64,000 nt of DNA, from positions 620,001 through 684,000 of the forward strand of contig NZ_JAEVLS010000003.1 of assembly GCF_016801985.1 (NCBI RefSeq). Reading direction: 5' to 3'. This DNA is from Steroidobacter gossypii. GTDB taxonomy: Bacteria; Pseudomonadota; Gammaproteobacteria; Steroidobacterales; Steroidobacteraceae. Positions 16,633 to 54,550 of this stretch are shown piece by piece. The notes under the pieces were generated by a model. The model did no database searches. It was not told the origin of the DNA and saw nothing but the letters and a program-made list of their open reading frames with translations. The translations under genes and the position numbers were made by a program. Each line of letters starts with the position of its first letter. Within the stretch, counting starts at the first letter, position 1.

Positions 16633-17352
16633 ATGGCAATTCGTGCCGCGCGCCTGAACGTCTGTGGCGCGATGGTGTGCATCTTGTCTGCGCTGACAGC
16701 CTCGTCCTGGGCTGCGGCAGCTCCGATGCCATCCGCACGCGCGCAGGCCGATCACTCAGGGGAGCACTTCGAGTTCGACATCCCGGCCCAACCATTGGCG
16801 GATGCGTTACGGCGCTTTGCATCGCTCACCCGGGAGCCGACCTTGTTTCGCAGTGACCTGGTCAATGGCCGAAGCTCCACGGCGGTTCGCGGACTGTACA
16901 CTTCCGAAGTTGCCTTGCATCGGTTGCTGGAGGGCACAGGCCTCACGGCCGAGAAATCGGATCAGGGTGGCCGCGGCGGTTTTGTCCTGAATGCGATTGA
17001 TCCCTCCGTGGTCGCGCCGCGGGTCGCCCTTGGCAATCTGGCAGGCTATCCCGGCCTGATTCAGGCGCGTGTTTGGGAAGCATTGTGCGCCCATGCTCGA
17101 ACCGCGCCTGGGACATACCGCACGCTGTTGCGCTTCGAGGTGGATGGCGCCGGCCAGATCCAACGGCCTCGCTTGCTCACATCCACGGGCGATGCGCACC
17201 GGGACGCGGCGATGCTGGCTACTTTGCTAGCCGTGCGCCTGGACGGACCGCCGCCGGCCGACCTGCCGCAGCCAGTGACCATGCTGATCGTGCCACGCGA
17301 TGCCGAGAACGGCGACGCGCCGAGTTGTGACGACGGAGCTTCCGGAGCATGA
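16633..17352 (+). CDS. STN-TonB hybrid periplasmic protein (cassette 1)
   Basis: The product has 239 residues from ATG 16633, chosen because AGGA lies nine bases upstream and a signal peptide follows directly (hydrophobic about 10-30). Residues about 45-120 form an STN domain (FDIPAQPLADALRRF, then VRGLYTSEVALHRLLEGTGL), the fold that TonB-dependent transducers use to contact FecR. Residues about 135-222 resemble a TonB C-terminal domain (LRFEVDGAGQIQRPRLLTSTG, then PQPVTMLIV). No beta-barrel follows, so this is a free periplasmic protein rather than a receptor. Its stop overlaps the sigma-factor start (ATGA), so the two are translationally coupled. A role as signal relay to the downstream FecR is inferred. 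It is paralogous to the gene at 35956. Confidence 0.85.
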   Translation: MAIRAARLNVCGAMVCILSALTASSWAAAAPMPSARAQADHSGEHFEFDIPAQPLADALRRFASLTREPTLFRSDLVNGRSSTAVRGLYTSEVALHRLLEGTGLTAEKSDQGGRGGFVLNAIDPSVVAPRVALGNLAGYPGLIQARVWEALCAHARTAPGTYRTLLRFEVDGAGQIQRPRLLTSTGDAHRDAAMLATLLAVRLDGPPPADLPQPVTMLIVPRDAENGDAPSCDDGASGA

Positions 17353-17924
17353 CCGAGGAAGTCCGCCCGCAATTGATCGATTACCTGGTCAAACACTACG
17401 GCACGCTCAAGCTGCGTGTGTCGCAGCTGCTAGGTAACACCGAGCTGGCGGGCGACGCCCTGCACGACGCCTGGCTGCGCCTGAAGACCAGGGAAGCGGA
17501 GGATGCAATTCACAGCCCGAGCAGTTACCTGGTGCGAATGGCCGTCAATCTCGCGGTCGACGTGCAACGCCGCCAGGGCCGTTCGGTGTCGCTCGAAGAA
17601 ATCAACGCGGCGATGGCGCTGTCCGACCCGCTCCCCGGTCCCGCCCGGACCGCGGAATCGCAGGCCGAGCTCGACGAACTGGTCAAGCTCGTGGAGCGCA
17701 TGCCGGCGCGCCGGCGCGAGGTTTTCATTCTGGTGCACTGGGAGGGGATTCGGCAGGACGAGGTGGCCAGACGCCTGGGATGCTCCAAGCGCACGGTCGA
17801 GTATGAGTTGCAGCGTGCTCACCAACATTTGACCGGACGGCTCAAGCCGGTCATAAAAAAAATTGCGGATGGACGGGGTCCCCATTCGTCTAGAAACATC
17901 CATGAAGACACGTGTGACAGATAG
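17349..17924 (+). CDS. FecI-type ECF sigma factor (cassette 1)
   Basis: The product has 191 residues. The sigma-2 region is about 8-80 (GDALHDAWLRLK, then SSYLVRMAVNLAVD) and the sigma-4 region about 115-165 (MPARRREVFILVHWEG, then DEVARRLGCSKRTVEYEL). It should direct RNA polymerase to a small regulon and be held by the FecR encoded next. The start overlaps the STN gene by four bases. The 3' end overlaps the FecR gene if that starts at 17902. A run of eight A residues at codons 169-172 lies exactly where loss of one base would join this frame to FecR. Likely targets are the adjacent giant TpsA gene and perhaps the cassette itself; this is inference from position. Confidence 0.92.
   Translation: MTEEVRPQLIDYLVKHYGTLKLRVSQLLGNTELAGDALHDAWLRLKTREAEDAIHSPSSYLVRMAVNLAVDVQRRQGRSVSLEEINAAMALSDPLPGPARTAESQAELDELVKLVERMPARRREVFILVHWEGIRQDEVARRLGCSKRTVEYELQRAHQHLTGRLKPVIKKIADGRGPHSSRNIHEDTCDR
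17855..17862 (+). other. A8 homopolymer at the sigma/anti-sigma junction
   Basis: Eight consecutive A residues read as (at)A AAA AAA A(tt) in the sigma-factor frame, in strongly GC-rich surroundings. Loss of one A, in DNA or by RNA-polymerase slippage, moves the ribosome into the frame of the anti-sigma gene with no stop between, giving a fused protein of about 517 residues. A ribosomal minus-one slip would instead stop within about ten codons. Confidence 0.6.
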
Positions 17925-18903
17925 CACGATTGCCAGCGACGACTTGCAAAGCCAGGCGTGGGTCTGGCTGCGCCTGCTCAACTCGGGCGAGGTCAAATCC
18001 TGGGATCTGGAAGGCTTTCAGCGCTGGCTGCAGGCCAGTCCCGCACATCGGGCGGCCTTCAATGCAGCCAGACAGCAGTGGGACGCGTTCAGACCCGCGG
18101 CCGGGGCGGTGTTACGCCGGAATGCCGACGCCGCCGCTTTTCATCAGCGCACGTTGCCCGGACGCCTGCAAAGCCGCCGAGCTTTTCTGACGGCCGCGGC
18201 CGGCGCCGCCGCCGTCGCCGGGATCGCCGTTCTGCATCCGTCCGCCGATCTTTGGCCTGCCGCCGGGCGATGGGGCGCGGACTACCGAACCGACACCGGC
18301 GAGCAGCGACAGATCGCGCTGAGCGATGTCGTCAAAGTCACAATGAACACTCAGACCAGCATCCGTCGGCAGACCGTGGGTGAGCGGATCGTCGGCATCG
18401 ATCTGCTGGCGGGCGAAGCGGCCATCGATCTGCCAGCGGCCTCCGCCAACGGTCAGCCGTTCGTCGTCGCCGCCGGTCGCGGCCGCAGCTTCGCCGAGAC
18501 CGCGCAATTCGAGGTGCGCTATCTGGACGGCAAAGTTTGCGTCACCTGTGTCGAAGGCGAGGTTCGGGTTGAGCACGCACAGGGAATCCGCAGGCTCGCG
18601 GCAGGCGAGCGAACGATTTATGACGAGCGCATGCTCAGCGGCGTGGACAGCATCGATCCCCGCCGAGCGTCGGCCTGGCGCAAGGGCGAACTGGTGTTCG
18701 ACAACGCGCGGCTCGCCGATGTGATCGCGGAAATCAATCGTTACCGCCCCGGCCGTGTCGTACTGATGAATGCAGCGATGCGCGACAAGCCGGTCAGCGG
18801 CAGTTTCTATATCGCCTCGCTGGATCAGGCGCTGGCGCTGCTCCAACGCACCTTCGATCTGAACGCCCGCACCTTGCCGGGCGGTCTGTTCGTGCTGAGC
18901 TAG
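17902..18903 (+). CDS. FecR-type anti-sigma factor (cassette 1)
   Basis: The product has 333 residues from ATG 17902; the frame is open further upstream to a TTG at 17863. Residues about 12-60 are the cytoplasmic sigma-binding FecR N-terminal domain (QAWVWLRLLNSGE, then FQRWL). SRRAFLTAAAGAAAVAGIA at 91-109 is a twin-arginine-type membrane segment, as known for FecR proteins that use Tat export. The periplasmic FecR domain is about 125-225 and includes a CxxC (C213, C216). The C-terminal 265-333 is the STN-like partner domain (FDNARLADVIAEINRYRP). By family knowledge it sequesters or activates FecI depending on a periplasmic STN contact, here most likely the hybrid protein two genes upstream. 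Confidence 0.9.
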   Translation: MKTRVTDSTIASDDLQSQAWVWLRLLNSGEVKSWDLEGFQRWLQASPAHRAAFNAARQQWDAFRPAAGAVLRRNADAAAFHQRTLPGRLQSRRAFLTAAAGAAAVAGIAVLHPSADLWPAAGRWGADYRTDTGEQRQIALSDVVKVTMNTQTSIRRQTVGERIVGIDLLAGEAAIDLPAASANGQPFVVAAGRGRSFAETAQFEVRYLDGKVCVTCVEGEVRVEHAQGIRRLAAGERTIYDERMLSGVDSIDPRRASAWRKGELVFDNARLADVIAEINRYRPGRVVLMNAAMRDKPVSGSFYIASLDQALALLQRTFDLNARTLPGGLFVLS

Positions 18904-31000: not shown

Positions 31001-32698
31001 AACAGAGGCGAGCTCAAGAGCCTGGGTCCTGTGGTCAACGTCACGCCGGGCAACCGCAGCGGAGGCGCCGGTATCTCGGTGTCGGCGGGTCTGGGCGAGG
31101 GCGCGCACTGGGATGCGTTCGCCGCGCGCTACCTCGATCCGGCCAACCAGGCGAACCCGGGCCTGCCGCTCGCTGACCAGCCGGGCAAAGCGGTGTACGT
31201 CTACAGCGGCGAGCTGACGCTGGCGCAGTGGCTGCAGCGCGAATTCGGCTATGCCGGCGACGACAGCGGTGCGCAGGCGTTCCTGGCCGAGAAGCAGGCC
31301 GAACTGGACGCGACGCGAGAGGCGGCGCTGGCCCAGGGGCGCACCGCGGCCAATCGTTCGCTGGCGAGGGAATATAAGCTCGAGGGCCAGCTGCATCTGG
31401 TCAACTGGCTGGGCGAGCGCTTCGGCGGACGCAACGGACTCGGCCTGCACTTCGATGCGGCGACGATGGACGCGCCCGCGTTCTTCGCGGCGCTGCCTCC
31501 GGAGCAGCAACGCGCTTATCTGCGCAACGTGTACTACGCCGAGCTGAAGGCCGCCGGCCGCGAGTACAACGATGTCGGCGGCAGGCGATTCGGCAGCTAT
31601 CTGCGCGGGCGCGAGGCCATCGCCACGCTGTTCCCCGAGCAGGACGCCGCCGGCAACGCGCTGAGCTACGAAGGCGACCTCACGTTGTTCAGCAGCGCGC
31701 TGTACATCGACGAATACGTCACCAGCAACGGCATCTTCAAAGAACGTCCGACGCCCGGCCTGCGCTACATCACCGAGGAGGAATGGATTGCCCTGGGACG
31801 TCCCGGCTATGGCGTGCCGTTCTACACGGTGCAGGACGCCGGCATCCACACCAACTTCGGTGGCGACATCAACATTCTCACCCCGGGCGGACGCACCCTG
31901 GTGGGCATCGACGGCGCCTTCGCCCCCGGCCCGCAGTCCGGCCTGATGACCCAGGGCGAGGGCGACATCAACATCTATGCGCAGGACGACATCCTGATGG
32001 GTCAGAGCCGCATCTTCACCACGTTCGGCGGCAACATCCTGGCCTGGTCCGCGGAAGGCGACATCAACGCTGGCCGCGGCGCCAAGACCACGGTGGTCTA
32101 CACACCGCAGCGGCGCGTCTACGACAGTGTCGGCAACGTCACGCTGTCGCCAAGCTCGCCAAACAACGGCGCCGGTATCGCCACGCTGAATCCGATTCCG
32201 GAGATCCCGCCTGGCGACATCGACCTGATCGCACCGCTGGGCACGATCGACGCGGGCGAAGCGGGCATTCGTGTGTCGGGCAACGTCAACCTGGCAGCGC
32301 TGCAGGTGGTCAACGCCGAGAACATCCAGGTGCAGGGCGAAGCCACGGGCGTGCCGGTGTTGGCGCAGGTGAATGTTTCTGCACTGACGGACGCCAGCCA
32401 AGCCGCGACTACGGCAGTGACTGCCGCGCAGGAAGTCATGCGACGCGAACGGGCAGCCACGCGGGAGAGCTTGCCGTCGATCTTCAGCGTGCGAGTCTTA
32501 GGCTTCGGCAATGAAACGTCGAGAGACGATCGTGCCGATACAGGGGCAACGTCACGCTCCAATTTGCAGTCCGGCGTGCAGCGCTCGTACGACCCGAGCA
32601 AGCTGGCGCAGATCGTCGGGCTCGGCAACAACATCGACCCGAAACATTGGGCTCGCTTGACCGAAGAAGAACGCCGACGGCTGCAACAGGATCGCTGA
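19079..32698 (+). CDS. Giant filamentous-haemagglutinin-type exoprotein (TpsA), 4,539 residues
   Basis: The start is GTG 19079 without a strong ribosome site. A signal peptide (about 1-42, cut after VAHA) is followed by QSAFSPSWFAAKGAAQ, a motif shared with its paralogue. The TPS secretion domain spans about 130-410, with IEQTGDKAILNWETFNVG and NRNGVLF (residues 224-230, in place of the NPNG of classical FHA). A long beta-helix of GGxxx(V/I)xxGG repeats fills the centre. Residues about 4050-4190 are a helical insertion (LAQWLQREFGYAG). The DUF3739-type region (about 4250-4400, GDINIYAQDD, SAEGDINAGRGAK) precedes a conserved C-terminal FSVRVLGFG at 4469-4477. The only cysteines I see are C2225 and C2231. 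It is expected to be secreted by the TpsB at 52934, as none lies closer. Adhesion or biofilm function is inferred from the family. Confidence 0.93.
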   Translation: MNTRGRITTDRQTKKLNLRASPIARAIALTLAASGASGVAHAQSAFSPSWFAAKGAAQNNAATTGRLPNGQPAHSLNPAQLQSQAARERLQLSIDNLGTAAHAIAFQQRLQAQARAAARARPGVPDGLTEGGLEVDTNPLTAGWLNAKDPTQVQQDGRTTVTIEQTGDKAILNWETFNVGRNTTVKFEQDASWSVLNRVNDPQARPSEIQGRIQAEGTVFLVNRNGVLFDGSSQVNVRNLAAAAVNMTDAQFSRGLYSDTQGAGTNTRHIPSFANDLETTASSFSYGAATGKVIVEQGAEIATHVPQSVTEGGGYVLLLGGEVHNAGEIATANGQTMLAAGDAFVIRKGMSTEENQASTTRGNVVSALRLADGVDQSGEPVPNPAGGVRNSGLIEATTGDITLVGHDVRQDGTLVSTTSVHTRGTIHLLNDKTDTDGEVTLGAGSVTAIVLDESATTALDVQREALIRDSDIDGDGIRHRRDQSLVQIVSGGDVTFESDSLTLATSGQVFVDAAATSEVQANARIDVSGHVGVRIAMEANNVEINVQGFEQRDAPVNRDGDNLRNHTIVLDRRDLVLVPAGTNGHETDRWYTAGGLLEVGGYLGITGHGIGEWSAQGGTVQFSGAELLTRAGSSINLSGGTLDVQSGYVYQTWLKGIDGNLYNASSAPGDLLYTGLYRGFESTHERWGSGSTDYYHNPLIAPDRRIENGYTVGRDAGRLVVSTQRATLEGDIETATFQGNRQIDAREPGLDGYQQSQTAAARRGELVIGTWTPVYDRNDRNLRYTPGAVAEQLVIGAADAVPVESSEEEPAPNRIVLGGDWLNELELGALRAYATGGVEVNEALTVAHGGVVALHATQVDINAGVTARGGDIALGNIVDVYVSNTTGWEERTIVTTPPEGYASRAVIGAGVTLDARGVWSNLQLDPTDIGGVPYADGGNVTVRSSGDVFVGSGSLIDTSSGATLMADDSLHGGRGGDITVIANGFPVAGNAGGRLVLEGELRGHGVEGGGTLHLQTGDAVVIGGQTGGSDGFLHEGETSLVDLVTLEEFTIDQGAILPLDYTYTRTRAAPGEALGGVPTIVQSQPSTHLTLAAPWTPPRPAAGTYRLITSAGSYQIISNSTPPQLPAGTVIRAINPPQSFPSGYVVPADVFPNGIPIEPTIGVIRAGNPAPVEITFAAGTRIAAGQQLPRTIAVKPLFELDVATFRQGFSRYEVVGVGGLAVASGAAVDVSMPVLRVDPATARTVATGSDPATALSVWEPPLFTEVPREGRLSQRSGADLLLQAGLAGQSAMPTLWVGRDADIAVDPGSSIRLAGNGQITIDGRLHAAGGSIDVLPLGYGATAEVRNARGHDGSIWIGERAVLDVAGIASTALDAQGRRYGRVLDGGSIQIGGTYQGDATIAGSVDNFIVIRPGALLDASGTSAALDLPSLGQTVVASDGGLIHLSSFNGLHVDGQLRAASGGAGAAGGTLSLALETPNYATAASPSSRVLQHRELQLVREQAPAVLAEDLKPGEADPALVYGHAQLAVDRVEAGGFDNLSLLVNGVLSIEGGVDLALGQSLRLAASNISLQEGSGEGSRVRLAAPYVRLANTTRSQRDNHIMPRPTATGALAGQPSIPEGTHLLIESSLLDVIEQLSFGTYGYAQPSAGSPLIERPAFDLVELRSQGDMRFLASSVGVGSITGLTTNGDLILAASQIYPTMSARVDITAGRQGYFDQWGNWRFDLDPTRSLRIEQIGNPAPRTPFSVFGSITLSSAHIDQGGILRAPLGTITLGSAGTAGASTRLVLRPDSITSVSAAGLVMPYGGTVDGLTYTYDGLDAFYHGIGSGLGSVLLRGDDIEAQEGAVIDLSGGGELTGAGFLIGRGGSTDARLHPLVQMDAEGGGFVLPGLTTNPVYAIVPGVQPDAAPVVAEKGAGDPVVGRQITIGDGVPGLPAGTYTLLPSTYALLPGAFRVELNGLASSVAAFGRTTAMRNGSYTTAARLGIASTDIVDTLTTQVIVSSADTLRRYSQYKETNYAQFGLNWAQRDGVPRPQLERDARVLLLAPGKTLEMADGVVNLNAAEHGRAGTVVLQGDRIEILPDGATPSEDFDGIAVHASTLNGIGAGTISVGAMPNSTFALMRGYGSTQDAWRVGFTTPGGSADEIVLREGAVLSASQVFLVGSEITVEQGASIDTLGRGAAPWSSADGYVLSPGDGMLAVSNGWLDALPSSSASGSGYIHIGTCAQGASCGGETRLYSEGTITAVTQSFLLEDSVRYGTRNLVLALGGINVGSDAAIARAAAEGVLTSGLTLNQDLLDRLLRGDTSTGAPALENLVLKAADSINFYGSVDLSTIDPVSGESALERLVLGAPAVYGYGEAGDVARIETDILVWNGASSPAGNVIAGGAGTGDGQFVVDARIIEFGYGPNSQPDSVATSDRLTVGFAAVNLNASERITANHKGTLSVYHSQGQQDAATGAWSYSGGDLNINTPLLTGQAGSVNTITAGGSINAVAPEGSSSPLPDNATLADALGAELSLHAGQQLVVDTAVLLPSGKLRLTAEEDVTLQDGAQLDLAGRKIDFFDVSKYSWGGEVTLDSRGGNVVQHADSRIDLSAQYNRAGRLTAIALDGTVDLAGEIAGGSSGHYDAGGTQVPFASGYLDIRGRHIADFAGLNARLTEGEVFGGRSFQLKEGDLVIGDELKAREINVSVDNGRLTVNGTINASGEQAGSIRLAANDGVTLAGTAVLDASASVLRKDSYGQVIEAPNRAVIEIDSGDGRLVLESGARMDLRVEGANANYGTVALNAPRLGGATGNDVDIDANGTVDIAGARSISVNAFHRYDDADVGTDPGVDGRTYQVIDQAYLDAKHADSDVFIDNALANGALMDGKLRGLRAYADAFHLRPGVEITSNAAVNPDGDLHVDGDLDLSGHRYTSVNPHTQRTGTYGSGEAGALVLRAEGDLVLFGSISDGFDTSRVGETPDDNGWVLPAGRMPFGGDLIIPHGGVATLDAGTVFKAGRTLNYDLPVAGLTLPAGTVLPATMPLGQELTLAAGTVLGADVRDGAGNLLHAAGTVLREPLVLAAGMQLGAGFRLPAQVQLAATAWPKGAELPVNMTLAQPLTLAKGAIVPSETDVLLPGGAVMVDLRPTGADGAQGRNLAVAPMLAAGSQSWDIRLVAGADPEAADPRLTQPGGTARLRLADTHFGLGYEATEVPGTGTPPTYGWGTSESALTFWNDLEAWFGVVITAGSAVSDADVQMLKDVGLIGESVTELNDWGYGTVVTVIDPGTPPDLEYEPAPVRQQLYSVVRTGTGDLELISGGDFEMTSPYGVYTAGTPSVSMGSRFDLPRGRLADGTVLREEGAQYESLVDGGADSLYAAWYPEHGGNVLLSAGGDLIGDLIGYNGNRLDYGYGFADTRGQFETTAVNTWLWRQGSGSVEPGPEAVPTAWWVNFGTYVDGPRNGQYDSYGQWLFGNDPFLVGFTGIGTLGGGNLTVQAGGDAGMIDIRGNATLNGLTQVDSNIHTPRSQGLHLAIGSTGRITADGTLVQTGGGDFDLRLGGTLNPNAQLRRNEHDLNSTFVNLRGASRIEAGAIGGLQLRYGVLDHVDTRTGGPYAAGRVFAGGGPVVVLGDSTMRIDTRGDLVLGGAGDPGRMPLLNSTPFSYQGTHLEGGGWSWFSLWTPATAIDLFSAGGHLTPTTAWAEGSSQEDLRVAVMDRNQSASDDGYFYPSILRAAAANGSVYYGVGTTNLRNSYGQTPLRVQHGVTLAPSPLDAQFTNVTGHGELQLLAGQSIFGSGLTFSASTADPWAMTSPFRPGFVGRVAETGGGRSGNEPVIVHNSTGEIADRNVWVGDRTGRSAVANLFNFGSSATSAHAVVGRVPSRYYAVEGDIVGLRVGNEVLLGFPAGAAGSRYEASVPVAIRAGRDISDSGTQLGRNDTVTAGGGGTGGARGNLIAHAFGDDVSIVEAGRDIRHSSFYVLGPGLLEVSAGRDLYFANRGELKSLGPVVNVTPGNRSGGAGISVSAGLGEGAHWDAFAARYLDPANQANPGLPLADQPGKAVYVYSGELTLAQWLQREFGYAGDDSGAQAFLAEKQAELDATREAALAQGRTAANRSLAREYKLEGQLHLVNWLGERFGGRNGLGLHFDAATMDAPAFFAALPPEQQRAYLRNVYYAELKAAGREYNDVGGRRFGSYLRGREAIATLFPEQDAAGNALSYEGDLTLFSSALYIDEYVTSNGIFKERPTPGLRYITEEEWIALGRPGYGVPFYTVQDAGIHTNFGGDINILTPGGRTLVGIDGAFAPGPQSGLMTQGEGDINIYAQDDILMGQSRIFTTFGGNILAWSAEGDINAGRGAKTTVVYTPQRRVYDSVGNVTLSPSSPNNGAGIATLNPIPEIPPGDIDLIAPLGTIDAGEAGIRVSGNVNLAALQVVNAENIQVQGEATGVPVLAQVNVSALTDASQAATTAVTAAQEVMRRERAATRESLPSIFSVRVLGFGNETSRDDRADTGATSRSNLQSGVQRSYDPSKLAQIVGLGNNIDPKHWARLTEEERRRLQQDR

Positions 32699-32794: not shown

Positions 32795-33376
32795 ATGAAC
32801 ACGAGTGTTGAGCACCGCCCGACGCTGCGCGATGTTTTGGTTACGAACTACGACCGGCTCACGCGCCGGCTGGCGCGCTATCTGGGGTGTCCGGAGCTGG
32901 CCAGCGATTGCCTGCACGACGCCTGGTTGCGTCTGGGCGATAGCACCGCTCCACCGGCGATTCAAAGCGCAGACGCGTACGTCTATCGCGTGGCGTACAA
33001 CGCTGCGATGGATCGCTTGCGTCGCGAGCGGTCGTTGCAAGGTGCGCAGCTGGTCGACAGCGATCTCGATCTGTTCGTGGATCCTACGCCCAGCCCGGAG
33101 GCGGTGACCCAGGCACGATCCGACCTCGGCGCCGTGGCGCAGGCGTTTCAGTGCTTGCCCTGGCGTCACCAATCCGTGCTGGTTGCTCTGCGCATCGAGG
33201 AGCGCACGCGCGAGGATGTGGCTCGTCGACACGGGATCTCGCTGCGCACGTTGGACACCACTTTGCGCCAAGCGCTACAGCACTGCGCCGAGAAAGCTCA
33301 ACAACCTATCCTCGCCGGCGTGAGCACGTCCCGTCGCAGACTGCCCACGCGTTGTCTGAGGTCTGAGGCGGCGTGA
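32795..33376 (+). CDS. FecI-like ECF sigma factor without adjacent FecR
   Basis: The product has 193 residues from ATG 32795. The sigma-2 region is about 10-85 (LVTNYDRLTRRLARYLGCPELASDCLHDAWLRL, in pieces matching the other two sigma factors) and sigma-4 about 115-165 (FQCLPWRHQSVLVALRIEERTREDVARRHGISLRTLDTTLRQAL region). A basic tail of about 20 residues (STSRRRLPTRCLRSEAA) is not found in the paralogues. Unlike them, it has no STN or FecR partner; the next gene, 187 bases on, is an exported trypsin-like protease. The promoter-like element at 33477, also found before the TpsB gene, lies 100 bases after its stop, so this factor is a good candidate to read both. Its anti-sigma partner, if any, is unknown. 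Confidence 0.9.
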   Translation: MNTSVEHRPTLRDVLVTNYDRLTRRLARYLGCPELASDCLHDAWLRLGDSTAPPAIQSADAYVYRVAYNAAMDRLRRERSLQGAQLVDSDLDLFVDPTPSPEAVTQARSDLGAVAQAFQCLPWRHQSVLVALRIEERTREDVARRHGISLRTLDTTLRQALQHCAEKAQQPILAGVSTSRRRLPTRCLRSEAA

Positions 33377-33476: not shown

Positions 33477-33514
33477 GTGACAAACGGCAGTGCCGGGGCT
33501 CGAGCACCGTCTAT
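33477..33514 (+). promoter_or_regulatory. Promoter-like element shared with TpsB gene (copy 1)
   Basis: GTGACAAACGGCAGT at 33477-33491, 17 bases, then GTCTAT at 33509-33514, 50 bases before the protease ATG. The same 15-mer, 17-base spacing and GTCTAT recur at 52770-52807 before the TpsB gene, while the spacer differs in sequence. The layout matches an ECF promoter (-35 near GGCAGT, -10 CGTCTAT). Confidence 0.65.
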
Positions 33515-33563
33515 TTCAGGAAACGCCGCGCGCGGTTCAAGCGCGGGCTATGGGATTGACGGC

Positions 33564-34313
33564 ATGACGGTTGGGAAACACCAGGTCGGGGGCACGCATC
33601 GCGTGTGGGCAGCATTCGCGCTCATGGCGATGAGTTCGCTTGCGGGGCGCGGCGTCGGCGCTGCGGAGCTGCAGACGCAAGCGAGCGGCGTCTTCCTCAA
33701 TGCCGCTGGCGACGTGCTTACGGCCCGGCATGCGGTGGCCGATTGCGAATCTCTATTTCTGGTCAAGGATGGCCGCATCGCCGAGGCAAGGATCCGGGCA
33801 CTGAGTGAACGATCGGATCTGGCGGTGCTGCGTTCGGCGCTCCAGCCCTACCTCAACGCGACACTGCCGCGCACCGATCTGGATTCGCTCAACGGCATCG
33901 GAGTCTTCGCCGAAAGCTATGAGAGTCTGCAGCGTTTGCCTGATCGCCACAGGGTAGTCAGCAACGCCATGACCATTCCAGGCAGAGGAGACCTGCAGCT
34001 GCTTTCCGACGTGAAACCGGGCGCGAGCGGCAGCGCCGTGCTGGGCAGTGGAGGGTTGTTGATCGGCATCGTGACCGGGCGAGCGGCATTCGGACCGTCG
34101 AGCGACGCAGGTGTCGTCGCCTTGAGCAAAGCGGCTTCTTCACGCCCCCGCCACGGCGTCACCCGCGTCCGGGCTGTCCCGCTGCGCGAGATCAAACTCT
34201 TTCTGCTCGACAATCAGATTCCATTCCAGCAAAGCGACGCTGCGCAGCTCGGGCCATTGCAATCGCCAGCGGCGCGCGCGGCGACGCTGGCGGTCGGAGT
34301 CATCTGCGGCTGA
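33564..34313 (+). CDS. Exported trypsin-like serine protease
   Basis: The product has 249 residues from ATG 33564. This start is preferred over an upstream GTG at 33477 because that GTG is the first base triplet of the shared promoter element. A signal peptide spans about 1-34 (cut near GVGAA). The chymotrypsin-fold triad is visible: H56 (VLTARHAV), D85 (ERSDLAVLR) and S155 (PGASGSAVL), in family order and spacing. There is no PDZ domain, so it is smaller than HtrA/DegP. It is probably periplasmic. The adjacency to an ECF sigma factor lacking a FecR and the shared promoter with TpsB suggest a job in surface-protein maturation, quality control or signal proteolysis; which one cannot be told from sequence. 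Confidence 0.85.
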   Translation: MTVGKHQVGGTHRVWAAFALMAMSSLAGRGVGAAELQTQASGVFLNAAGDVLTARHAVADCESLFLVKDGRIAEARIRALSERSDLAVLRSALQPYLNATLPRTDLDSLNGIGVFAESYESLQRLPDRHRVVSNAMTIPGRGDLQLLSDVKPGASGSAVLGSGGLLIGIVTGRAAFGPSSDAGVVALSKAASSRPRHGVTRVRAVPLREIKLFLLDNQIPFQQSDAAQLGPLQSPAARAATLAVGVICG

Positions 34314-35642: not shown

Positions 35643-35955
35643 GCGGCCGGGGCGCCGGACCACTCACCTGAATCTCGTGCGACTGCGCGGGGCGTGCCGT
35701 CGTCAGCATTGAGTTGGCGCGGTCCTCGCTCCGTTGCAAGAGAAGCATCGCTGAAGGACGGTGCGATGGCGCTCGTCCTCACCTCGCCCAGGAGTCGTTT
35801 TGCGAGCCGAGCGGCGAGATGGCCTGGAGGCTGTCACGTGACAGTCACATATCCCTCTTAGCATCCGTTCCGAAAATCCCCATCCGGTTCCCCGAGCCCA
35901 CATACGCCGGCGTCACCAGCAACGGCAGCAACTCACTATCTTTGTAAAGTTACAC
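35643..35955. other. Regulatory spacer before second cassette, 313 bases
   Basis: No gene is supported. It holds a perfect palindrome with an extra half-site (35831-35850) and an AT-rich stretch just before the STN gene (CTATCTTTGTAAAGTTACAC, 35936-35955). Confidence 0.6.
35831..35850. promoter_or_regulatory. Palindrome CTGTCACGTGACAG with extra GTCAC
   Basis: CTGTCACGTGACAG at 35831-35844 is a perfect 14-bp palindrome. Its right end overlaps a further AGTCACAT (35843-35850), so GTCAC occurs twice 11 bases apart on plus. It lies 112 bases before the STN gene of cassette 2 and is a likely operator for a dimeric regulator or an ECF promoter part. Confidence 0.5.
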
Positions 35956-37288: not shown

Positions 37289-38248
37289 ATGCCATTCGCT
37301 GATTCGAACGGCACGGCCGCGCTCGAGCGGCAGGCGCAAGCATGGGTCCTGCGGATCAAATCCGGAGAGGCGACCCCGAGCGACCTGCAGGCCCTGCGCG
37401 ACTGGTGCGCACTGAGCGCCTTGCATGCGCAGGCGTTCGATCGTGCGCGCTGTTCCTGGGACGAAATCGGGCAGGTCGGGCGGGTGTTTAGGGCCAGTCA
37501 TCCGCAGCCTGAACGCATCGATCTGCCGACGCGCCGAATGTTTCTTGGTGGCGCGCTGGCGACGGCGGGCGCGGCAGCGGTCGCGGCCGCGGCAGTTCCG
37601 CCGTTCGGACTCTGGCCCTCGCTCATCGAGCTCAATGCCGACTATCGCACGGCGACCGGCGAACAGCTGCGTATCGAATTGGCCGGCCGCATACAGGTTC
37701 ACCTGAACACTCAATCCAGCATGAACGTGCGCCCAGGCGGGAACGCCGGCGATGAAGTCGAGTTGCTCGCCGGCGAAGCGGCGATCGACAGCGGCACACG
37801 TCCGCTGCAAATTGTCGCCGGCAAGGGACGAATGCTATTGAGCTCGGGCGGAATCGAGGTGCGGTTCCTCAATGATCGTGTCTGCGTTACGTGCCTTCGC
37901 GACAGCGTCGAGATTCAGCACCCCGCGGGCGCGCTGGTCCTGCTGGCTCGGCAGCAAGTGCAGTACCGCGATCATGAGATCGCGGCGATGAGCAAGATCG
38001 ACACTTCTGTGACATCGGCGTGGCGAGCCGGAATGGTGACGTTCCGGGACACTCCGTTGCCAGACGTCGTCGCGGAGATCAATCGCTACCGGCCGGGGCG
38101 AGTGGTCCTGCTCGGCGAGCGCCTCGATACACGCAAGGTGAGCGGACAATTCCACATCGCGCGTCTCGACCAGGCAATCGATCGAATCGAAGAGGCGTTT
38201 GGCGCCACCGTGAGAAGATTACCGGGGGACGTGGTCCTGCTCAGTTGA
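37289..38248 (+). CDS. FecR-type anti-sigma factor (cassette 2)
   Basis: The product has 319 residues from ATG 37289. The N-terminal sigma-binding domain is about 12-60 (QAQAWVLRIKSGEATPSDLQ region). TRRMFLGGALATAGAAAVAA at 81-100 is again a twin-arginine-type membrane segment. The periplasmic FecR domain is about 115-210 with a CxxC (C199, C202) at the position of the one in the cassette 1 protein. The C-terminal STN-interacting domain is about 250-319 (FRDTPLPDVVAEINRYRPGR). Unlike cassette 1, it does not overlap the sigma gene. Expected partner proteins are the sigma factor at 36686 and the hybrid at 35956. Confidence 0.9.
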   Translation: MPFADSNGTAALERQAQAWVLRIKSGEATPSDLQALRDWCALSALHAQAFDRARCSWDEIGQVGRVFRASHPQPERIDLPTRRMFLGGALATAGAAAVAAAAVPPFGLWPSLIELNADYRTATGEQLRIELAGRIQVHLNTQSSMNVRPGGNAGDEVELLAGEAAIDSGTRPLQIVAGKGRMLLSSGGIEVRFLNDRVCVTCLRDSVEIQHPAGALVLLARQQVQYRDHEIAAMSKIDTSVTSAWRAGMVTFRDTPLPDVVAEINRYRPGRVVLLGERLDTRKVSGQFHIARLDQAIDRIEEAFGATVRRLPGDVVLLS

Positions 38249-50300: not shown

Positions 50301-52209
50301 TGCCGGCATCGCCAGCGGCATGCTGATGGCGCCGGCGCGCGACGGCGATCTCACTCTGCTGGCGGCCGGCGATATTCGCTTCGAGTTGATCAGGCACTAC
50401 GACAACGCGCTGCGCAATGTGGTGATGTCGGACGCCGATCCTTCCGTGCTGCTCACCCCGACCCGGGATCTGACGGTGCTCGCAACAGCGATCGCTCAAC
50501 CGCAGCCGGATTTCTATCCAGCCTACGATCGATCGAGCGGCCACGCGGAGAGCTTATATCGCAGGGAGGATGCGAACCCGGTCCGCATTTACGCTCGCGA
50601 AGGCGACATCATCGGCGTGCCGTTCACCTCCGAGCGCGCCAACGGTCCGACCATTGTCATGCCCAAGCGAGCCGAGATCCGGGCCGGCCGCGACATCATC
50701 GATCTGTCGTTCATCGGCCAGCATTTCGAGGAGGGGCAGACGACGAACATCGTGGCCGGGCGCGATTTCCGCGAGCAGGGCATCGTCGAGATCGATGGCT
50801 GGGGCGACGGCAACGGCGTCTGGATCGGCGGTCCTGGCCGGTTGGAGATGAGCGCCGGACGCAATTTCGATCTGGCCAAGAGCGCCGGCATTCAGAGCGT
50901 CGGCGATCAACTCAACCCGTTCCTGCCGGAGGATGTGAGCGCCGATATTTCGCTTACTGTGGGCACGGGCGCGGGCGCGCCGGACTACGCCGGTTTCGCC
51001 GCTGCGTATATCGATCCTGCTGCGCGCAGCGGTCGACATAATTATGCGGCGGAGCTGCTCGAGTTCATGCGCGAGCGCTCCGGCAACGACGCCCTCGATG
51101 CCAATGGGGCGTGGGCGCTCTTCAACGAGCTGCCCGAAGGCGAGCGCAACGCGTTCGTGCGTGAGATTCATTTCAAGGAGCTGGCGCGCGTCGGCACCGA
51201 GGCCGTTCGCAGCGGCACAGGCAACTACAATGCCGGCTATGACGCCGTCGAGACTCTGTTCCCGACGCTGGACGAGGACGATCCCACCCCTGGCTACGCC
51301 GGCGAGCTGTCGCTGCGCTACAGCCAGATCAAATCGTGGTACGACGGCGATATAAACATTCTCGCGCCGGGCGGCGGCATCGATGGCGGCGTGGCGGTGG
51401 TAGGGCCGGAAATCAGCCAGAGCAGAACGAGTACCAGCGGCGGCGTGACAACCACCGCGCTCAAGAACGCCAACTTGCTTGGCATCGTCTCCCTACGCGG
51501 CGGCGACATCAACATCATGGCTCACGACCACGTGATCGTGAATCAAAGCCGCGTGTTCGCGATCGGCGGCGGCGATCTGATCGTGTGGTCTTCCGAAGGG
51601 GACATCAACGCCGGTAAAGGCGCGAAGACGGCGCTGCTCGCGCCGCCGCCTCGGCTGGTGTTCGATCCCGCCACGGGAGGGTTCTCGCTGGAGCTGACCG
51701 GTGCCGCTTCTGGTTCGGGCCTCGCGACGTTGATCACGGAGCCCGATCAGGAGCCCGGCGATGTTTGGTTGATGGCGCCGCACGGCGTGGTCGATGCTGG
51801 CGACGCGGGCATTCGCGTCGCAGGTAACTTGATCATCGCGGCACAGGAAGTACGTGGCGTGGACAATATCGAAGTCGAAGGCCTGTCCTTTGGCGTGCCG
51901 GCGAATACTGTGAATGTCGCCGCGTTGAGCAACGCCAGCGTGACGGCGGCACAGGCTGCAACCGCGGCACAAGAGGTGGTCCAACGTGAGCGAGCTGCCG
52001 CGCGTCAGGCTTTGCCTTCGGTGTTCTCGGTGCGTGTTCTGGGTTTCGGCGAGGAGCGTGCTCTACTGAAACAGCAACCCGGCCGATCGGGTGCGCAGCC
52101 TTCCTACGACCCGGGCAGCGCCATCCAGGTGTTGGGCGATGGCGAGCTGACGGAGTCGCAGAAATCGAAGCTGACTACCACGGAGCTGCGCAACTGGCGG
52201 CGGCAATGA
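38389..52209 (+). CDS. Giant filamentous-haemagglutinin-type exoprotein (TpsA), 4,606 residues
   Basis: ATG 38389 lies eight bases after AAGGA; the adjoining GTG 38386 is less well placed. The signal region is long (about 1-57, cut after GMAHA) and is followed by QQAFSPAWFSAKGAAQ. The TPS domain (about 140-400) carries IEQTGDKAILNWETFNVG and NRNGVIF (238-244). A central beta-helix follows. About 1,000 residues (nt 45950-49000) are a Thr/Ser/Gly-rich insertion not seen at this length in the paralogue. A short helical segment (near nt 51050-51250), the DUF3739-type region (GDINIMAHDH, SSEGDINAGKGAK) and a C-terminal FSVRVLGFG complete it. I see no cysteine. It shares its whole architecture with the exoprotein at 19079 and probably uses the TpsB at 52934, which lies on the same strand 724 bases on. 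Confidence 0.93.
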   Translation: MPASSTLKNEAPFSLRHSRHSTSPNELSRAGRPTPLARAIALALASVAGSASGMAHAQQAFSPAWFSAKGAAQSTAATTGRAPNGQAASSLTGARQQQRASEQAQRSINNLNFAARVIAAQQAAQAAARQAALNAPSDIPDGLTDGGLKVDTNALTAGWLNAEAPVQTIVDGRTHVTIEQTGDKAILNWETFNVGRNTTVDFEQQASWTALNRVNDPQARPSQVAGQIKADGSVYIINRNGVIFTGSSQIDTASLTASALNISDDQFETNFITTAWNQNEPTFQVDNGFVAGAIEVQAGAQLEAAKNGRILLLGGDVSNEGTLRAKDGQVLLGASQSAVYLAASNDPAMRGLRIQIGGNGGHARNGGVIDTPRGNVTLAGRDVTLGALDANGQRLAGVLTATTTVTANGSVILQAGDLASKKLSEASVFIGWAPSRTGTVAIEPGAIVQVLPELANTQTVASEALLAPSRIELQGMTLHVGAGAMLQAPAGDLVLSAFDASSTAPFFDASQVYVDQGAILDVSGTRDVALSVLRNFVQVELRGAELADNPLIYDELYGKKVWIDIRDHGAFEDPLMRSIEWLEDRPGAWQGSPLFNAAGYVGLIQRGIGELTSRGGDITIESRGDVIVREGSQLNVSGGALEYAGGMTPVSYVIDSGGRFVPVGQAEYGQLYQGIAGVFAANHVRWGAQEQYANRFIPKTYRYEEGYTEGQAAGAVRLVGNRVAVHGDIFAIAEAGERQQREGEIPTGGTLIVGANPADPIPLSARTFDHMLDGDVLIQQHRASVLAPAFGDRLGEEHVTVLSAQAIEDGGVGQLEIYSNSQIVLDESVDLDLGAGGALQLGASDITVGGTVRAAGGTITLHADKTRDHLEATPSIAIGSGAVLDTSGEWRNAFVDGALPGVLDGGTVSLLTQGVTPAGIATTQVASGDEYPAGSITLADGAVIDVSAGGRVDRSGTEVQFGDAGAITIGAHEVDLSEGVELRGYALATQFEAGRGGSLVLIGAGDVIGGEGVDGTGQGRHFDTNFFNAGGFNHYSIDGIDSLTVEANTQLRLAQRNRLILDPRRPGSGVALSELGEETILADGIRPFSNLTLRAGRTTWTPSGSSFTVESISGSVLLGQNSLIDVGIGGSFSTAAPDQVVIAGTVIAPGGSITAGINVPPLLDTPAEPRAIWLTEEAELLARGAFLPTPNIHGQRTGQVLAGGTVKLDASAMGHVVTEAGSVIDVSGAVAQVDVPDYVIQDRSDIPLERSIAPQVRNETVWSDGGRVVLTMRDGGYLDGNIAAHAAHEAASGGAIAVLIGADPSNQNFRENNDSVNQRTLVLGQDHQARRPQMVTLDAEGRITQLEADPGQPQRSVYVSADGVTQSGAQSLQLAAHDVIAFDGDVELALSGSLNLQAGTLRVDAAEGAGSARVELSAAHVAIGVSDSSLLRYVPATTASAGVGDLVIHADELLSFGGRAVLANIDSASFLSDGDLRFDGGLLYQQLFDSFGNPIRNAAGIDQWNYLPTGTLSAAGDLTFGARQLYPGIGSNFTVETSGDDATLSILPGDVTAPLPWSAGGNLTLRAANIVHAGVLRAPAGQIRLDAGDTGTVTLAAGSLIDVSAHDRNLPYGTVINGDWYVDFGSVPDPLNSTRNTLARSLIQIPPDKRVSVAGESIDIQSGAVVDLSGGGDITAYEFTPGTGGSRNILQGAGVYAVLPGAQPGTAPMVGGKEIPPGESVYLSGVPGLSDGLYTLLPAQYALLPGAFRVSLAGASDQGLGLLGTRNDGSYVVSGWRGSSLHGSRDARNSTWLVMPGDVVREYSEFTEVVGNEFFAEHASDANRVVPPLMADAGQLVLNAASALNLEGRFNLAAGKGGRGGLADIASNSIAVVADGAGPVDGYSLTIEASALTDIGAQSLLLGGTRVTGVDGQTLMPVSNRVLIANDEAAALVGPEILLATASDIDSNGGVSGTGAITVASGAVIRAEGNYVGASTALSIGNAQARSPAGTGMGSLLVVSNAKELLVQRHDIAGPGSQITGEIDVQGGATLTATESILFDATTTSTIDEAARVRARSLEIASSVVSFGAAPTGTPGFIATPNTLAALSSAERLVLRSYGTIDFYGNGSFDLRDPATGLSQVKELVLDGGALVQRQEGDIAVGAGTLTLRNTSGSLGEGSEPGTTQGALVLDAKRIRIAQGDSRLLGFDSATLAAGSIEFGGAGSLVAGAEAVTDLVVASPLITTTDAANQSIAATGTLRLARGDHAPPAESDIEVGTGGVLEIDGATIDVDTRILMPSGVLTVDAKQALNVGPNATLDVSGRDEQFFDQKRTLPAGNITLISQTGDVHVHSGALLNLSDPKGGGKLTVTVPEGSFTIEGEARGGSLLLDAGALPGFGAMQAVLNDGGFAVSRSVRLRSGDALIDGVTRTRNFSLSTDEGSITVTGTIDASGPTGGSIKLTAADDITLVAGSKLSVVGQNFDGSGKGGSVFLSAGAHRIVDGQDVTNYGAIVDIQAGSLIDLGVANAAAAAKIVSLDAIGSSVALPAANALGFPDGTPADTTIVSSVAATIVYADGTTAELAPNTPVSLPKGAILKLSAAGTVSVASGGGKVAVVLPTTGAFTTNGATTVTSVPVTLNAPGSTITLAGGTPVILPNGTPGDDIITTTAESVSITTVSEGSQVTLTAGTSTLELTSGSSVTVASGAPDASFTVGDDAVTVDSGTSSSVVTLTRGAGSSVKSASTSWWENGITFSQGVAAGSRVTIEDTGTGAAPTRYEIYQPVGAADTTITLEGNGTIRLPAGNAVVGAPRVAFPSGSPAGATLVANQAVTVYAPDGSATAVAQNQPFVVPAGGSVQVTNLSRANLVMSENSTPFQVMLDNRNYSRSGSGTNYEVMDFASTQFETIAAQTRMFMRSATSIQSPIVVRSTDTALSLGLSGAWEVTDATVAGLGAGTRLEFSRDGVFAPSGNGEFALSLSSGRQYVANRTELGRLAAGTVLTLGQDGRLDFASGTSGAIPVLLPAAARFASSGASVFDLGGGQAGTLHLRAPQTNGGTGLGIAPINGTILGAASIIAEGYKVYDLTDSNGLITSTVQTQVRTDAEAFASHTAAIKAGLLANNPGLSSVLLVAPGAEIINANTDAAGNLTAQLGANGTIGLPANTTITLPAGLSDGRLVGSENITLELVIPADGARVSLVTESYLTVPAGVPISFPEGTTGGTTLSSLQWGGTIIEPDGTTRPLYSDNPTALQPGSLIILEQAAAITASGGVPLIAQLPAGSFAMRNASLLALPAGTTVKSHYASDLTLRAVSDVDPAALPIVLPNSGNFIVNGVAFGAAAGGAAQLTLVTPDSDGVSVTPDASVSLPNGGSVRVSAPGAVYAADGSVVASFNAGDIVTVAAGNTIRLASAGTVTTQQPNLAIRVAGAGFAPVSPANFTEMTLFNEQSSISGTAGARVTLIDEVTAEFVFHSSADATIYDWDGNVFDVIPAGGSAWLVSGFTVELSTAGTLTLEPQSWQTPNISAVVQSGSFQALGSTHFVQIPMPTATLAAPSGDVRLPADWNLADDRFGADRVPGILTLRAAGDIVLDGSLSDGFAGGVTGSTLLSDRSWSYRLVGGADFAGADVLAVRPEFQLAEGKGNVILAPGTSNRVVRTGTGEIDVAAGRDIELRSSMTAAGLRYSSLYTAGRPGNVQPGGGAFSTLPDGRVAYGGGSFTLALGGGDISLTAQRDIVGAARDTGDSVSTGKPQEFSDWVLTRGETDRQTGLFSEQPAWGIAYANHREGASTLGGGNITVNAGRDLLQMNVAAANSGVYVGAGPRSAALQTLGGGDVSVTTGRDVLGSQVYVAQGAGLLDVGRNIGAVQSRLWSWAGVPVPFNQYDSRLALGDASFDVVTRGDAAIAGVFNPTLTYALTGSNGIGSYTYLSTYTDRSAISIASIAGDVWLSSNPGLAASGRTATIPNGPSFQEGFKYTLYPGTVEAVSFTGDLKVGSDAGAGIASGMLMAPARDGDLTLLAAGDIRFELIRHYDNALRNVVMSDADPSVLLTPTRDLTVLATAIAQPQPDFYPAYDRSSGHAESLYRREDANPVRIYAREGDIIGVPFTSERANGPTIVMPKRAEIRAGRDIIDLSFIGQHFEEGQTTNIVAGRDFREQGIVEIDGWGDGNGVWIGGPGRLEMSAGRNFDLAKSAGIQSVGDQLNPFLPEDVSADISLTVGTGAGAPDYAGFAAAYIDPAARSGRHNYAAELLEFMRERSGNDALDANGAWALFNELPEGERNAFVREIHFKELARVGTEAVRSGTGNYNAGYDAVETLFPTLDEDDPTPGYAGELSLRYSQIKSWYDGDINILAPGGGIDGGVAVVGPEISQSRTSTSGGVTTTALKNANLLGIVSLRGGDINIMAHDHVIVNQSRVFAIGGGDLIVWSSEGDINAGKGAKTALLAPPPRLVFDPATGGFSLELTGAASGSGLATLITEPDQEPGDVWLMAPHGVVDAGDAGIRVAGNLIIAAQEVRGVDNIEVEGLSFGVPANTVNVAALSNASVTAAQAATAAQEVVQRERAAARQALPSVFSVRVLGFGEERALLKQQPGRSGAQPSYDPGSAIQVLGDGELTESQKSKLTTTELRNWRRQ
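45950..49000 (+). repeat. Low-complexity repeat insertion in second TpsA
   Basis: About 1,000 residues made of short recurring phrases: LP(A/N)GTxxG, VxLPxGxxxxL, (Y/A)(A/P)DG(T/S)xxxL and GAxVTL. They are rich in Thr, Ser, Gly and Ala and poor in charge, unlike the surrounding beta-helix. The TpsA at 19079 has only a short similar stretch (nt about 28090-28430, AAGTVL phrases), so this seems a lineage-specific expansion. Confidence 0.6.
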
Positions 52210-52769: not shown

Positions 52770-52807
52770 GTGACAAACGGCAGTCGTGCCGCGCTGCGCG
52801 TGTCTAT
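52770..52807 (+). promoter_or_regulatory. Promoter-like element shared with protease gene (copy 2)
   Basis: GTGACAAACGGCAGT at 52770-52784, 17 bases, then GTCTAT at 52802-52807, 127 bases before the TpsB ATG. It is identical in both blocks and spacing to 33477-33514, and both are preceded by AAGTT. This is the likely ECF promoter of the TpsB-ExbBD-TonB operon. Confidence 0.65.
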
Positions 52808-52933
52808 GAGGCATTCCTTACATGACGCCTGGCCGGCAGGTACGCCAGCCGCGGATTTTTCTTGCGTAGTGTCCAACCGGGCAAGTGCGCGGGGCGGCAT
52901 GTCGTATTCGTTTCGCAGACCGAGCTTCGTTCG

Positions 52934-54550
52934 ATGCACGATTGTCAAGAAAAGGGGACGCCGCCGACTTTGATCGCGGCGGTGAGTGTCGCTCTGCTGG
53001 CGCTGAACTCAGTCGCCGCAGCGCAAGCTCAGCAAGCTGAAGCGGCCGCCCAAACCGATGCGCGACGCTTCGACGTTGCGGAATATGTCGTCAAAGGCAA
53101 CACCGTGCTCGATGCTCGCTCGATCGAGAAGGCGGTGACGCCGTTCCTGGGCCCGCAGCGTACGCTGCAAGATCTCGAAGCCGCGCGCGACGCCTTGCTC
53201 GCCGCCTATCAGGCGAAGGGCTATCAATCGGTCTACGTCGATGTGCCCCAGCAGCCGATGACCGGTGGCGTCGTGTACCTGCTCGTCAGCGAAACCAAGG
53301 TCGGTCGCGTGCGAGTGGTCGGTGCGAAATACAGCTCGCCCCTGGCGGTGCGCGATCAGGTGCCGGCGCTCAAGCAAGGCGAGGTTCCCGATTTCAACCA
53401 GGCACAAGCCGAGTTGACGGCGCTCAACCGCAGCGGAGCTCGCCAGGTCATGCCGCTGGTGAAGCAGGGCAGCCTGCCGGGCACCATGGATGTGGATCTG
53501 AAAGTCGAGGACAGCAAGCCGTGGCGCACCAGCATGGGCTTGAACAACGACAGCAGCCCCGATACGGAAGATCTCCGTGCACTCGCGTCCCTCGGTTACG
53601 ACAACCTCTGGCAACGCGCTCACAGCGCTTCCGTGAGCTTCTTCGTGGCGCCGCAGGACCCCGATGAAACAAACGTGTGGTCGGCATCGTACATCGCGCC
53701 GATCGGCGCGAACTGGAGCCTGGAGACCTCGGGATACATCTCCGACAGCGACGTCGCGACGGTCGGCGGCACGACGGTGCTTGGCAAGGGCCATTCGGTG
53801 GGCTTGAAGGCCACGTACACGGCGCCGATGACGGGCGCGTGGTGGCACAGCTGGAGCGCCGGCGTGGACTTCAAGGATAACGACGAAGCACTCACGTTCG
53901 ATAACGCCGGGGATTTCGTACCGCTCAGGTACGCGCCCATCACAGTGGCTTACTCGGGCTTCACACAAACCGAGCGCTTGCAACTGGCTCTCGGATCCTC
54001 CGCCGTGATCGGCACGCGCAGCTTTTTCGGCTACAACAGCAACTCGGCCCAGTTCGATTACAAACGTTATAAGGCGTCGCCGAGCTTCCTGGTGCTGAAG
54101 TCGGACGTGAATGCCACTTACACATTCGGCAACGAATTGCAGCTGGGGCTGCGCCTGGCCGGCCAGATCACCGACTCTCCGCTGGTGTCCAGCGAACAAA
54201 TCGCAGCGGGCGGCATGAATTCGGTGCGTGGCTATTTGTCTGCGGAAGCAACCGGCGACTATGGCGTGGTCGGCTCGCTCGAGTTCCGCACCATGCCGCT
54301 GAACTGGTTCACGCCGTGGGTCGATAGCTGGCGCGCTTACGTGTTCACCGATGCCGGACACCTGCGCATCACCGACGGTCTGCCCGAGCAGGATAGCGAG
54401 TTCACGCTGTTCTCCGCCGGCCTGGGGACGACGTTCCGTATCGCTCAGTACATCACCGCGCGGCTGGACGTCGGCTATCCGATAGAAACATCCCTGCGCA
54501 CCGAACGCGACGAGCCGAAAGTCAATTTCAGCCTCAACGCCAGCTACTGA
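52934..54550 (+). CDS. TpsB outer-membrane transporter (FhaC/ShlB family)
   Basis: The product has 538 residues from ATG 52934; the frame is open upstream but only this start is followed directly by a signal peptide (about 1-32). POTRA 1 is about 45-121 (FDVAEYVVKGNTVLD) and POTRA 2 about 123-194 (VGRVRVVGAKYSSP). The 16-strand barrel follows from about 198, with the conserved GGMNSVRGY near 426-434 that marks the loop 6 tip of Omp85/TpsB proteins. It ends in an aromatic residue (LNASY). It secretes TpsA proteins across the outer membrane after recognising their TPS domain. It is the only TpsB in the window, so it probably serves both giant exoproteins. The ExbB gene begins 58 bases downstream. 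Confidence 0.93.
   Translation: MHDCQEKGTPPTLIAAVSVALLALNSVAAAQAQQAEAAAQTDARRFDVAEYVVKGNTVLDARSIEKAVTPFLGPQRTLQDLEAARDALLAAYQAKGYQSVYVDVPQQPMTGGVVYLLVSETKVGRVRVVGAKYSSPLAVRDQVPALKQGEVPDFNQAQAELTALNRSGARQVMPLVKQGSLPGTMDVDLKVEDSKPWRTSMGLNNDSSPDTEDLRALASLGYDNLWQRAHSASVSFFVAPQDPDETNVWSASYIAPIGANWSLETSGYISDSDVATVGGTTVLGKGHSVGLKATYTAPMTGAWWHSWSAGVDFKDNDEALTFDNAGDFVPLRYAPITVAYSGFTQTERLQLALGSSAVIGTRSFFGYNSNSAQFDYKRYKASPSFLVLKSDVNATYTFGNELQLGLRLAGQITDSPLVSSEQIAAGGMNSVRGYLSAEATGDYGVVGSLEFRTMPLNWFTPWVDSWRAYVFTDAGHLRITDGLPEQDSEFTLFSAGLGTTFRIAQYITARLDVGYPIETSLRTERDEPKVNFSLNASY

Follow-up and report, generated by a model that had tools for sequence, protein, structure and literature searches.

The genome of Steroidobacter gossypii (7.1 Mb) includes, at positions 620001-684000 of one contig, a 64,000-nucleotide stretch that is referred to here as the window. 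It contains two gene cassettes on the + strand, each encoding, in order, a small protein in which an STN domain is fused to a TonB-type C-terminal domain (hereafter the hybrid), a FecI-like extracytoplasmic function (ECF) sigma factor, a FecR anti-sigma factor, and a giant TpsA exoprotein, with one TpsB gene after the second cassette (Table 1). This arrangement had been noted in an initial annotation and is confirmed by domain matches and coordinates. Both TpsA proteins contain a two-partner secretion (TPS) domain and TpsB contains a POTRA domain and a ShlB barrel, which identifies the locus as a two-partner secretion system. The hybrid and sigma factor genes overlap by 4 bases in cassette 1 and by 8 bases in cassette 2, and four genes occupy the interval between TpsA1 and hybrid 2, their products being a further ECF sigma factor, a Trypsin_2 family protein, a small TonB-domain protein termed z, and a PhoB-family regulator.

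Table 1. Features of the two-cassette locus, numbered from the first nucleotide of the window.
Feature	Position	Strand	Remarks
Hybrid 1 (VreA-like)	16633..17352	+	STN and TolA/TonB-type C-domain; N-end resembles a signal peptide by eye; start uncertain, with the frame open from 16381
ECF sigma factor 1 (VreI/FecI-like)	17349..17924	+	
FecR/VreR-like anti-sigma factor 1	17902..18903	+	FecR, DUF4880, FecR_C; Tat-like stretch
TpsA1, 4539 aa	19079..32698	+	TPS domain near N-end; DUF3739 at residues 4317-4427
TpsA1 tail motif PSIFSVRVLGFG	32474..32509	+	Begins 74 residues before C-end, within a stretch of pLDDT <50
Third ECF sigma factor	32795..33376	+	No FecR adjoining
Trypsin_2 family protein	33477..34313	+	DegS-like similarity weak
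z, small protein with TonB-type C-domain, no STN	34340..34846	+	Similarity to hybrid C-domains; no Pfam match at E 0.01
PhoB-family response regulator	34863..35642	+	TIGR02154 254 bits, under its cut-off of 296
Direct repeat resembling a pho box, ahead of hybrid 2	35831..35852	+	11/14 consensus positions; suggestive only
Hybrid 2 (VreA-like)	35956..36693	+	
ECF sigma factor 2	36686..37219	+	
FecR/VreR-like anti-sigma factor 2	37289..38248	+	
TpsA2, 4607 aa	38386..52209	+	TPS domain; DUF3739 at residues 4395-4506
TpsA2 tail motif PSVFSVRVLGFG	52015..52050	+	Begins 64 residues before C-end
TpsB, sole TpsB of the cluster	52862..54550	+	POTRA_2, ShlB; start uncertain
ExbB	54582..56396	+	N-terminal DUF2341 and LamG-like domain
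ExbD	56410..56820	+	
Dedicated TonB	56832..57524	+	
Porin_5 family putative porin	57564..59432	+	

With the starts used, the hybrids are 239 and 245 aa long, and their N-ends resemble signal peptides when judged by eye. The C-domain has the TonB/TolA fold, and both reading frames stop directly after it, with neither a plug nor, as the initial annotation held, a β-barrel following the STN domain. The predicted local distance difference test score (pLDDT) of the STN part is <50 in a two-row structure model, so the STN assignment rests on sequence. Across the S. gossypii genome there are 28 STN matches, 25 of them in frames of at least 788 aa, and 32 FecR matches; just two hybrids were found, both inside the window.

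A protein of this architecture was described in 2009 as VreA of the P. aeruginosa PUMA3 system, where a barrel-less STN domain is joined to a TolA/TonB domain in a mostly soluble, partly membrane-associated protein (PMC2729926). The same work linked VreA to tpsA, tpsB, and exbBD genes, reported fourfold repeats of it in other organisms, and proposed contacts with VreR and with an outer-membrane partner, the latter suggested via the C-domain (PMC2729926). A profile of the hybrids (A3; 18 rows, including G227 from a Pseudomonas) found one match to both halves in the genome of P. aeruginosa PA7, covering model positions 6-197 of 201 with an E-value of 5.6e-65, and the next matches were receptor STN domains, from 4e-19. 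This PA7 protein is followed by a FecR-like frame and lies ~25 kb from the TpsA C-end; the grounds for regarding it as VreA-like are its architecture and position, the record being unannotated, and the comparison is with PA7 rather than with PA0674 of PAO1. The window cassettes are therefore assigned, with near certainty, to PUMA3-type (VreA-VreI-VreR) cell-surface signaling. The initial annotation's free periplasmic STN-TonB relay tied to two-partner secretion thus holds in its architecture and general idea, both found in the published VreA/PUMA3 model (PMC2729926), while its novelty does not, and the hybrid was rejected as a new kind of protein. A cysteine pair in the C-domain was also discarded as a defining trait: it is present in 17 of the 18 profile rows, missing from locus L071, and half missing in PA7.

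A search for hybrids, as the initial annotation had suggested, found them in 11 of 398 Pseudomonadota genomes and in 2 of 98 relatives (hybrid 2 as query, at the thresholds used, S. gossypii being counted in both sets). FecI- and then FecR-like genes follow the hybrid in all 17 cases outside S. gossypii. What comes next at these 17 loci is TpsA (nine), TpsA beyond a gap of ~11-12.5 kb (four, of which three belong to a single genus), TpsB (two), TpsB ~6 kb further on (one), or a contig end (one). The two gaps checked, at L082 and L092, contain type II secretion genes and a gene for a PBP-like protein, an arrangement also described for P. aeruginosa. Of the four hybrids in genome G297, three stand ahead of TpsA and one ahead of TpsB-ExbB-ExbD, which is the layout known from Rhodopseudomonas palustris (PMC2729926). 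The number of hybrids equals the number of TpsA proteins bearing DUF3739 in 9 of the 11 hybrid genomes, and each cassette of the window probably controls the giant DUF3739-type TpsA adjacent to it.

Several related arrangements were seen along the way. An ECF sigma factor lacking a FecR partner also follows TpsA at L081 (3483-4175) and L091 (16769-17473), both in one genome, with scores of 179-184 bits. Three consecutive genes on a Klebsiella pneumoniae plasmid (NZ_CP065459.1; L261, 16043-18231) encode a protein that has a TonB C-terminal domain and is 44% identical to a Pseudomonas hybrid, a sigma factor, and a DUF4880 protein.

DUF3739 TpsA proteins occur in 14 of the 398 Pseudomonadota genomes, and all 11 hybrid genomes are among these. 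The DUF2341-LamG front part of ExbB was matched in all 14 (in G381 only by a 55-residue fragment where a contig ends), and outside them only in G222, as a weak match within a 4698-aa frame. For five of the 14 (G297, G421, G252, G116, and G457), an ExbB was confirmed using the full-length ExbB of the window; G381 apart, the DUF2341-LamG frames of the others are 592-681 aa long, which fits ExbB. Of the three DUF3739 genomes without a hybrid, G116 and G457 encode TpsB, TpsA, ExbB, ExbD, TonB, and Porin_5 together and G365 has the same genes over two contigs. In family f20, DUF3739 was found in 35 of 299 genomes and full-length hybrids in three of those 35. Because the ExbB part accompanies DUF3739 TpsA in 14 of 14 genomes and the hybrid in 11 of 14, the TonB system is the steadier partner of these TpsA proteins and the hybrid an addition.

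The C-domains of these proteins are related to one another. Against a model of the hybrid C-domain, seven dedicated TonBs score 15-71 bits, six z-type proteins 16-41 bits, and 24 other TonB_C proteins -0.1 to 20.2 bits, the last set being 24 of 30 TonB_C loci after removal of L327 (a hybrid) and the weak L323, L330, L331, L336, and L337. The hybrid C-domain thus resembles the TonB of its own operon more than most other TonBs. When the hybrid profile was applied to the hybrid-less DUF3739 genomes examined, it gave 14 C-domain-only matches at an E-value of 1e-10, 12 of which share a contig with a DUF3739 gene, the distance being no more than 5 kb in 11 cases and 19 kb in the twelfth; of the remaining two, that of G365 adjoins its ExbB gene and that of G503 is on a different contig. 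Because of this kinship and of the location near DUF3739 genes, the sequences suggest that hybrid, z, and dedicated TonB recognize the same kind of partner. Solo proteins of the z type recur near cassettes at L081, L084, L085, L086, and L089, and could compete with the hybrid or with TonB.

A candidate for such a partner is found near the C-end of TpsA, where a short motif, [VL]x[VF]LGFG, follows DUF3739 within an otherwise variable C-terminal stretch. It was examined in 52 DUF3739 proteins. The phylum sample supplied 21 of these, Pseudomonas three, and f20 the other 28, drawn from 35 additional DUF3739 rows of which seven had no locus. The core residues are conserved in 47 (L), 49 (G), 48 (F), and 49 (G) of these proteins, and motif positions 1-7 carry 2.2-4.7 bits of information, compared with 1.6-2.3 bits for the five preceding residues and 0.5-1.7 bits for the further flanks, in an alignment that is anchored on the motif and so favors it. 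PdtA of P. aeruginosa PA7 likewise has both DUF3739 and the tail motif. In the TpsA1 model the tail stretch has a pLDDT <50 and is read as probably disordered. The V-x-V-x-G pattern of the motif resembles the TonB boxes (LEEVxVTG type) of the receptors of S. gossypii itself. Among the papers listed in searches of open-access literature, no earlier account of the tail idea was found.

Tails and controls were ranked by one score, with leave-one-out scoring for the positives. Fifty of the 52 tails outscore every control 9-mer, the exceptions being G252a (5.2) and G365 (10.0); the best control 9-mers reach 7.1 bits in six control TpsA tails, 10.1 bits in nine TpsB, and 10.4 bits in eight Porin_5 proteins. 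All 80 Pseudomonas loci score at least 12.8. Within single proteins the tail stands clear of the next best place, at 21.6 vs. 8.8 in TpsA1 and 21.4 vs. 10.0 in TpsA2, where the second place, AIQVLGDGE at residue 4579, is itself within the C-terminal extension described below. The motif is missing from all six DUF3739-less TpsA proteins, which come from five of the DUF3739 genomes. These controls bear on the outer-membrane partner suggested in the initial annotation, in which the hybrid would sense TpsB occupancy or the porin. TpsB and Porin_5 genes do lie near ExbB-ExbD-TonB genes in the loci examined, but neither of two TonB-box-like or tail-like patterns was found before POTRA in the nine TpsB read, and the score used detected no tail-like motif in the eight Porin_5 proteins; these patterns lent no support to the idea that TpsB is what the hybrid senses, and this explanation is considered improbable.

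TpsA proteins from hybrid genomes continue past the motif by 38-64 residues in all 19 read, and in 15 of them a second V-x-V-x-G-like element can be recognized by eye within this extension. Other TpsA proteins end 0-30 residues past the motif in 30 of 31 cases, counting two from G252, which has a divergent hybrid, and two Pseudomonas rows of unchecked hybrid status; the remaining protein, from G511, has the extension in a fragmented genome where only an ordinary receptor STN was found. With G511 excluded, 18 of the 25 hybrid-less f20 proteins read end no more than 5 residues from the nine-residue motif window, as does that of G116. The extension was set aside as proof of contact with the hybrid, as it follows TpsA phylogeny and does not amount to independent evidence; the tree allows a single origin, with two independent pairs on well-supported branches. 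A two-cysteine loop directly follows the tail motif at the C-ends of the hybrid-less TpsA proteins of L273, L275, L277, and L284.

The tail could also be read by something other than a TonB domain. As a secretion, anchoring, or maturation signal recognized by TpsB or a protease, it would be unrelated to TonB and hybrid alike, and the two-cysteine loop after the motif in the hybrid-less G688, G681, G754, and G592 recalls the periplasmic C-terminal anchor of HMW1 and HxuA (PMC5422565), while TpsB and Porin_5 also accompany DUF3739 TpsA. Nothing speaks directly against such a role, although the motif goes with the DUF2341-ExbB gene, and it is lacking in the six TpsA proteins without DUF3739 from five of the same genomes, where TpsA export of a separate kind is present. 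This alternative is regarded as a serious one, held at somewhat less than an even chance.

The account preferred on balance, and considered moderately probable, is that PUMA3-type cassettes each precede their own TpsA and that the hybrid C-domain and the dedicated TonB bind the same partner, most likely the TpsA tail. By analogy with other published cell-surface signaling systems, the STN half of the hybrid would dock on the STN-like end of FecR and may shield FecR from proteolysis, and the TolA/TonB-type C-domain would be an untethered counterpart of the TonB domain dedicated to TPS, with the same partner. Acting on the tail, the dedicated TonB would either pull TpsA or release it, and the hybrid would report to FecR the amount of TpsA tail left in the periplasm, thereby tuning sigma factor activity. 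The identification of [VL]x[VF]LGFG itself as a ligand of the TonB and hybrid C-domains is tentative and considered less likely than not. Type V secretion is held to need no external energy source (PMC5422565), and the wider proposal that secretion of DUF3739 proteins is coupled to the proton gradient, with TonB-ExbB-ExbD acting on a TonB-box-like tail of the exoprotein and the hybrids being cut-loose TonB domains fused to a signaling domain that count unreleased exoprotein, is possible but doubtful.

Several observations weigh against a shared tail ligand. The motif is without the acidic residues of the TonB boxes, its LGFG core is absent from those boxes, and the whole motif takes the form LxFLGF in 16 f20 proteins. 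The motif score was derived from the same proteins that it ranks and was seeded with the motif. The lowest scores of dedicated TonBs fall within the range of ordinary ones, and the hypergeometric co-occurrence values (4e-19 and 7e-25) ignore relatedness. Experiments in P. aeruginosa count in the same direction, as the pdtA and phdA promoters remain at wild-type level without vreA in low phosphate, in work that also found pdtA to be driven jointly by PhoB and the sigma factor (PMC4971064), and the virulence of a vreA mutant equals that of the wild type (PMC7035377). These experiments, the only ones found, do not support the step in the initial annotation by which the hybrid frees the sigma factor for expression of its TpsA, and the outcome that the annotation had named as contrary to its model, TpsA expression unaffected by loss of the hybrid, is largely what the P. 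aeruginosa homologue displays, although the inducing signal may have been absent from these experiments.

The same experiments would suit a hybrid that is dispensable or vestigial, with sigma factor activity set by expression and FecR alone, since vreA deletion affected neither the low-phosphate regulon nor virulence. This is thought unlikely, as hybrids and DUF3739 TpsA proteins are equal in number in 9 of 11 genomes and the hybrid frames are stop-free, with residues conserved across classes, where vestigial genes would decay. Alternatively, the STN half might only shield FecR and the C-domain only serve as an anchor, with TpsA governed mainly by phosphate through PhoB and by FecR turnover. 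There is precedent in FoxA, whose signaling domain is cleaved free and protects FoxR in the absence of the signal (PMC11637429), and a PhoB-family regulator and the pho-box-like repeat adjoin hybrid 2. That repeat is one of four 11/14 matches on both strands of the whole window, and no repeat of that score precedes hybrid 1 or either TpsA gene; likewise, no clear shared sigma factor promoter was found upstream of TpsA1, TpsA2, and TpsB. Shielding alone predicts that vreA deletion should raise activity, yet activity stays at wild-type level in low phosphate, and it leaves the conservation of the C-domain and its closeness to the TPS-dedicated TonB unexplained, so that this reading is rated as rather unlikely. 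As to FecR itself, both proteins of the window match the twin-arginine translocation (Tat) signal model, with 21.0 and 18.6 bits against a cut-off of 16.7, and a trypsin-like protein with weak DegS similarity, a candidate FecR protease, is also encoded at L085 (1149-1976).

According to PMC7035377, it is unknown what VreA does, how exbB2-exbD2-tonB4 function, and which signal induces PUMA3, and the TonB system is uncharacterized. A conserved short tail that goes with the TonB genes would offer one peptide with which to probe all three questions. Elsewhere in the window, upstream of the cassettes, two large surface proteins (149-8959 and 10897-15879) appear by eye to be rich in repeats and to have autotransporter-like ends, and the genes between theirs appear to encode a response regulator and an MscS-like protein.

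The cassettes belong to a known kind, and what is added here is the comparison of TpsA tail, TonB system, and hybrid. Like PUMA3 (PA0674-PA0676), they encode a barrel-less STN protein with a TolA/TonB-type C-domain in the order hybrid, sigma factor, anti-sigma factor, with the first two genes overlapping, and they are associated with TpsA, TpsB, ExbB-ExbD, TonB, and a putative porin. Unlike PUMA3, the window has two cassettes in which no Hxc genes for type II secretion separate FecR from TpsA, and the space between the cassettes holds genes for one more sigma factor, the trypsin-like protein, z with its solo TonB C-domain, and the PhoB-like regulator. An STN domain, a FecI-type sigma factor, and a FecR-type anti-sigma factor are shared with Fec, Pup, Fpv, and Fox signaling, but the STN proteins of the window are without the barrel or plug of a TonB-dependent receptor. 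The hybrids have the C-domain fold of the TonB/TolA energy transducers, but carry an STN half where transducers have a proline-rich spanner, and an N-end that appears signal-peptide-like by eye. Finally, the TPS domain in TpsA and the POTRA domain and ShlB barrel in TpsB are those of two-partner secretion as in FhaB/FhaC, HMW1, and PdtA/PdtB, whereas the TpsA proteins of the window are of the DUF3739 class, with a tail motif and linked ExbB-ExbD-TonB genes.

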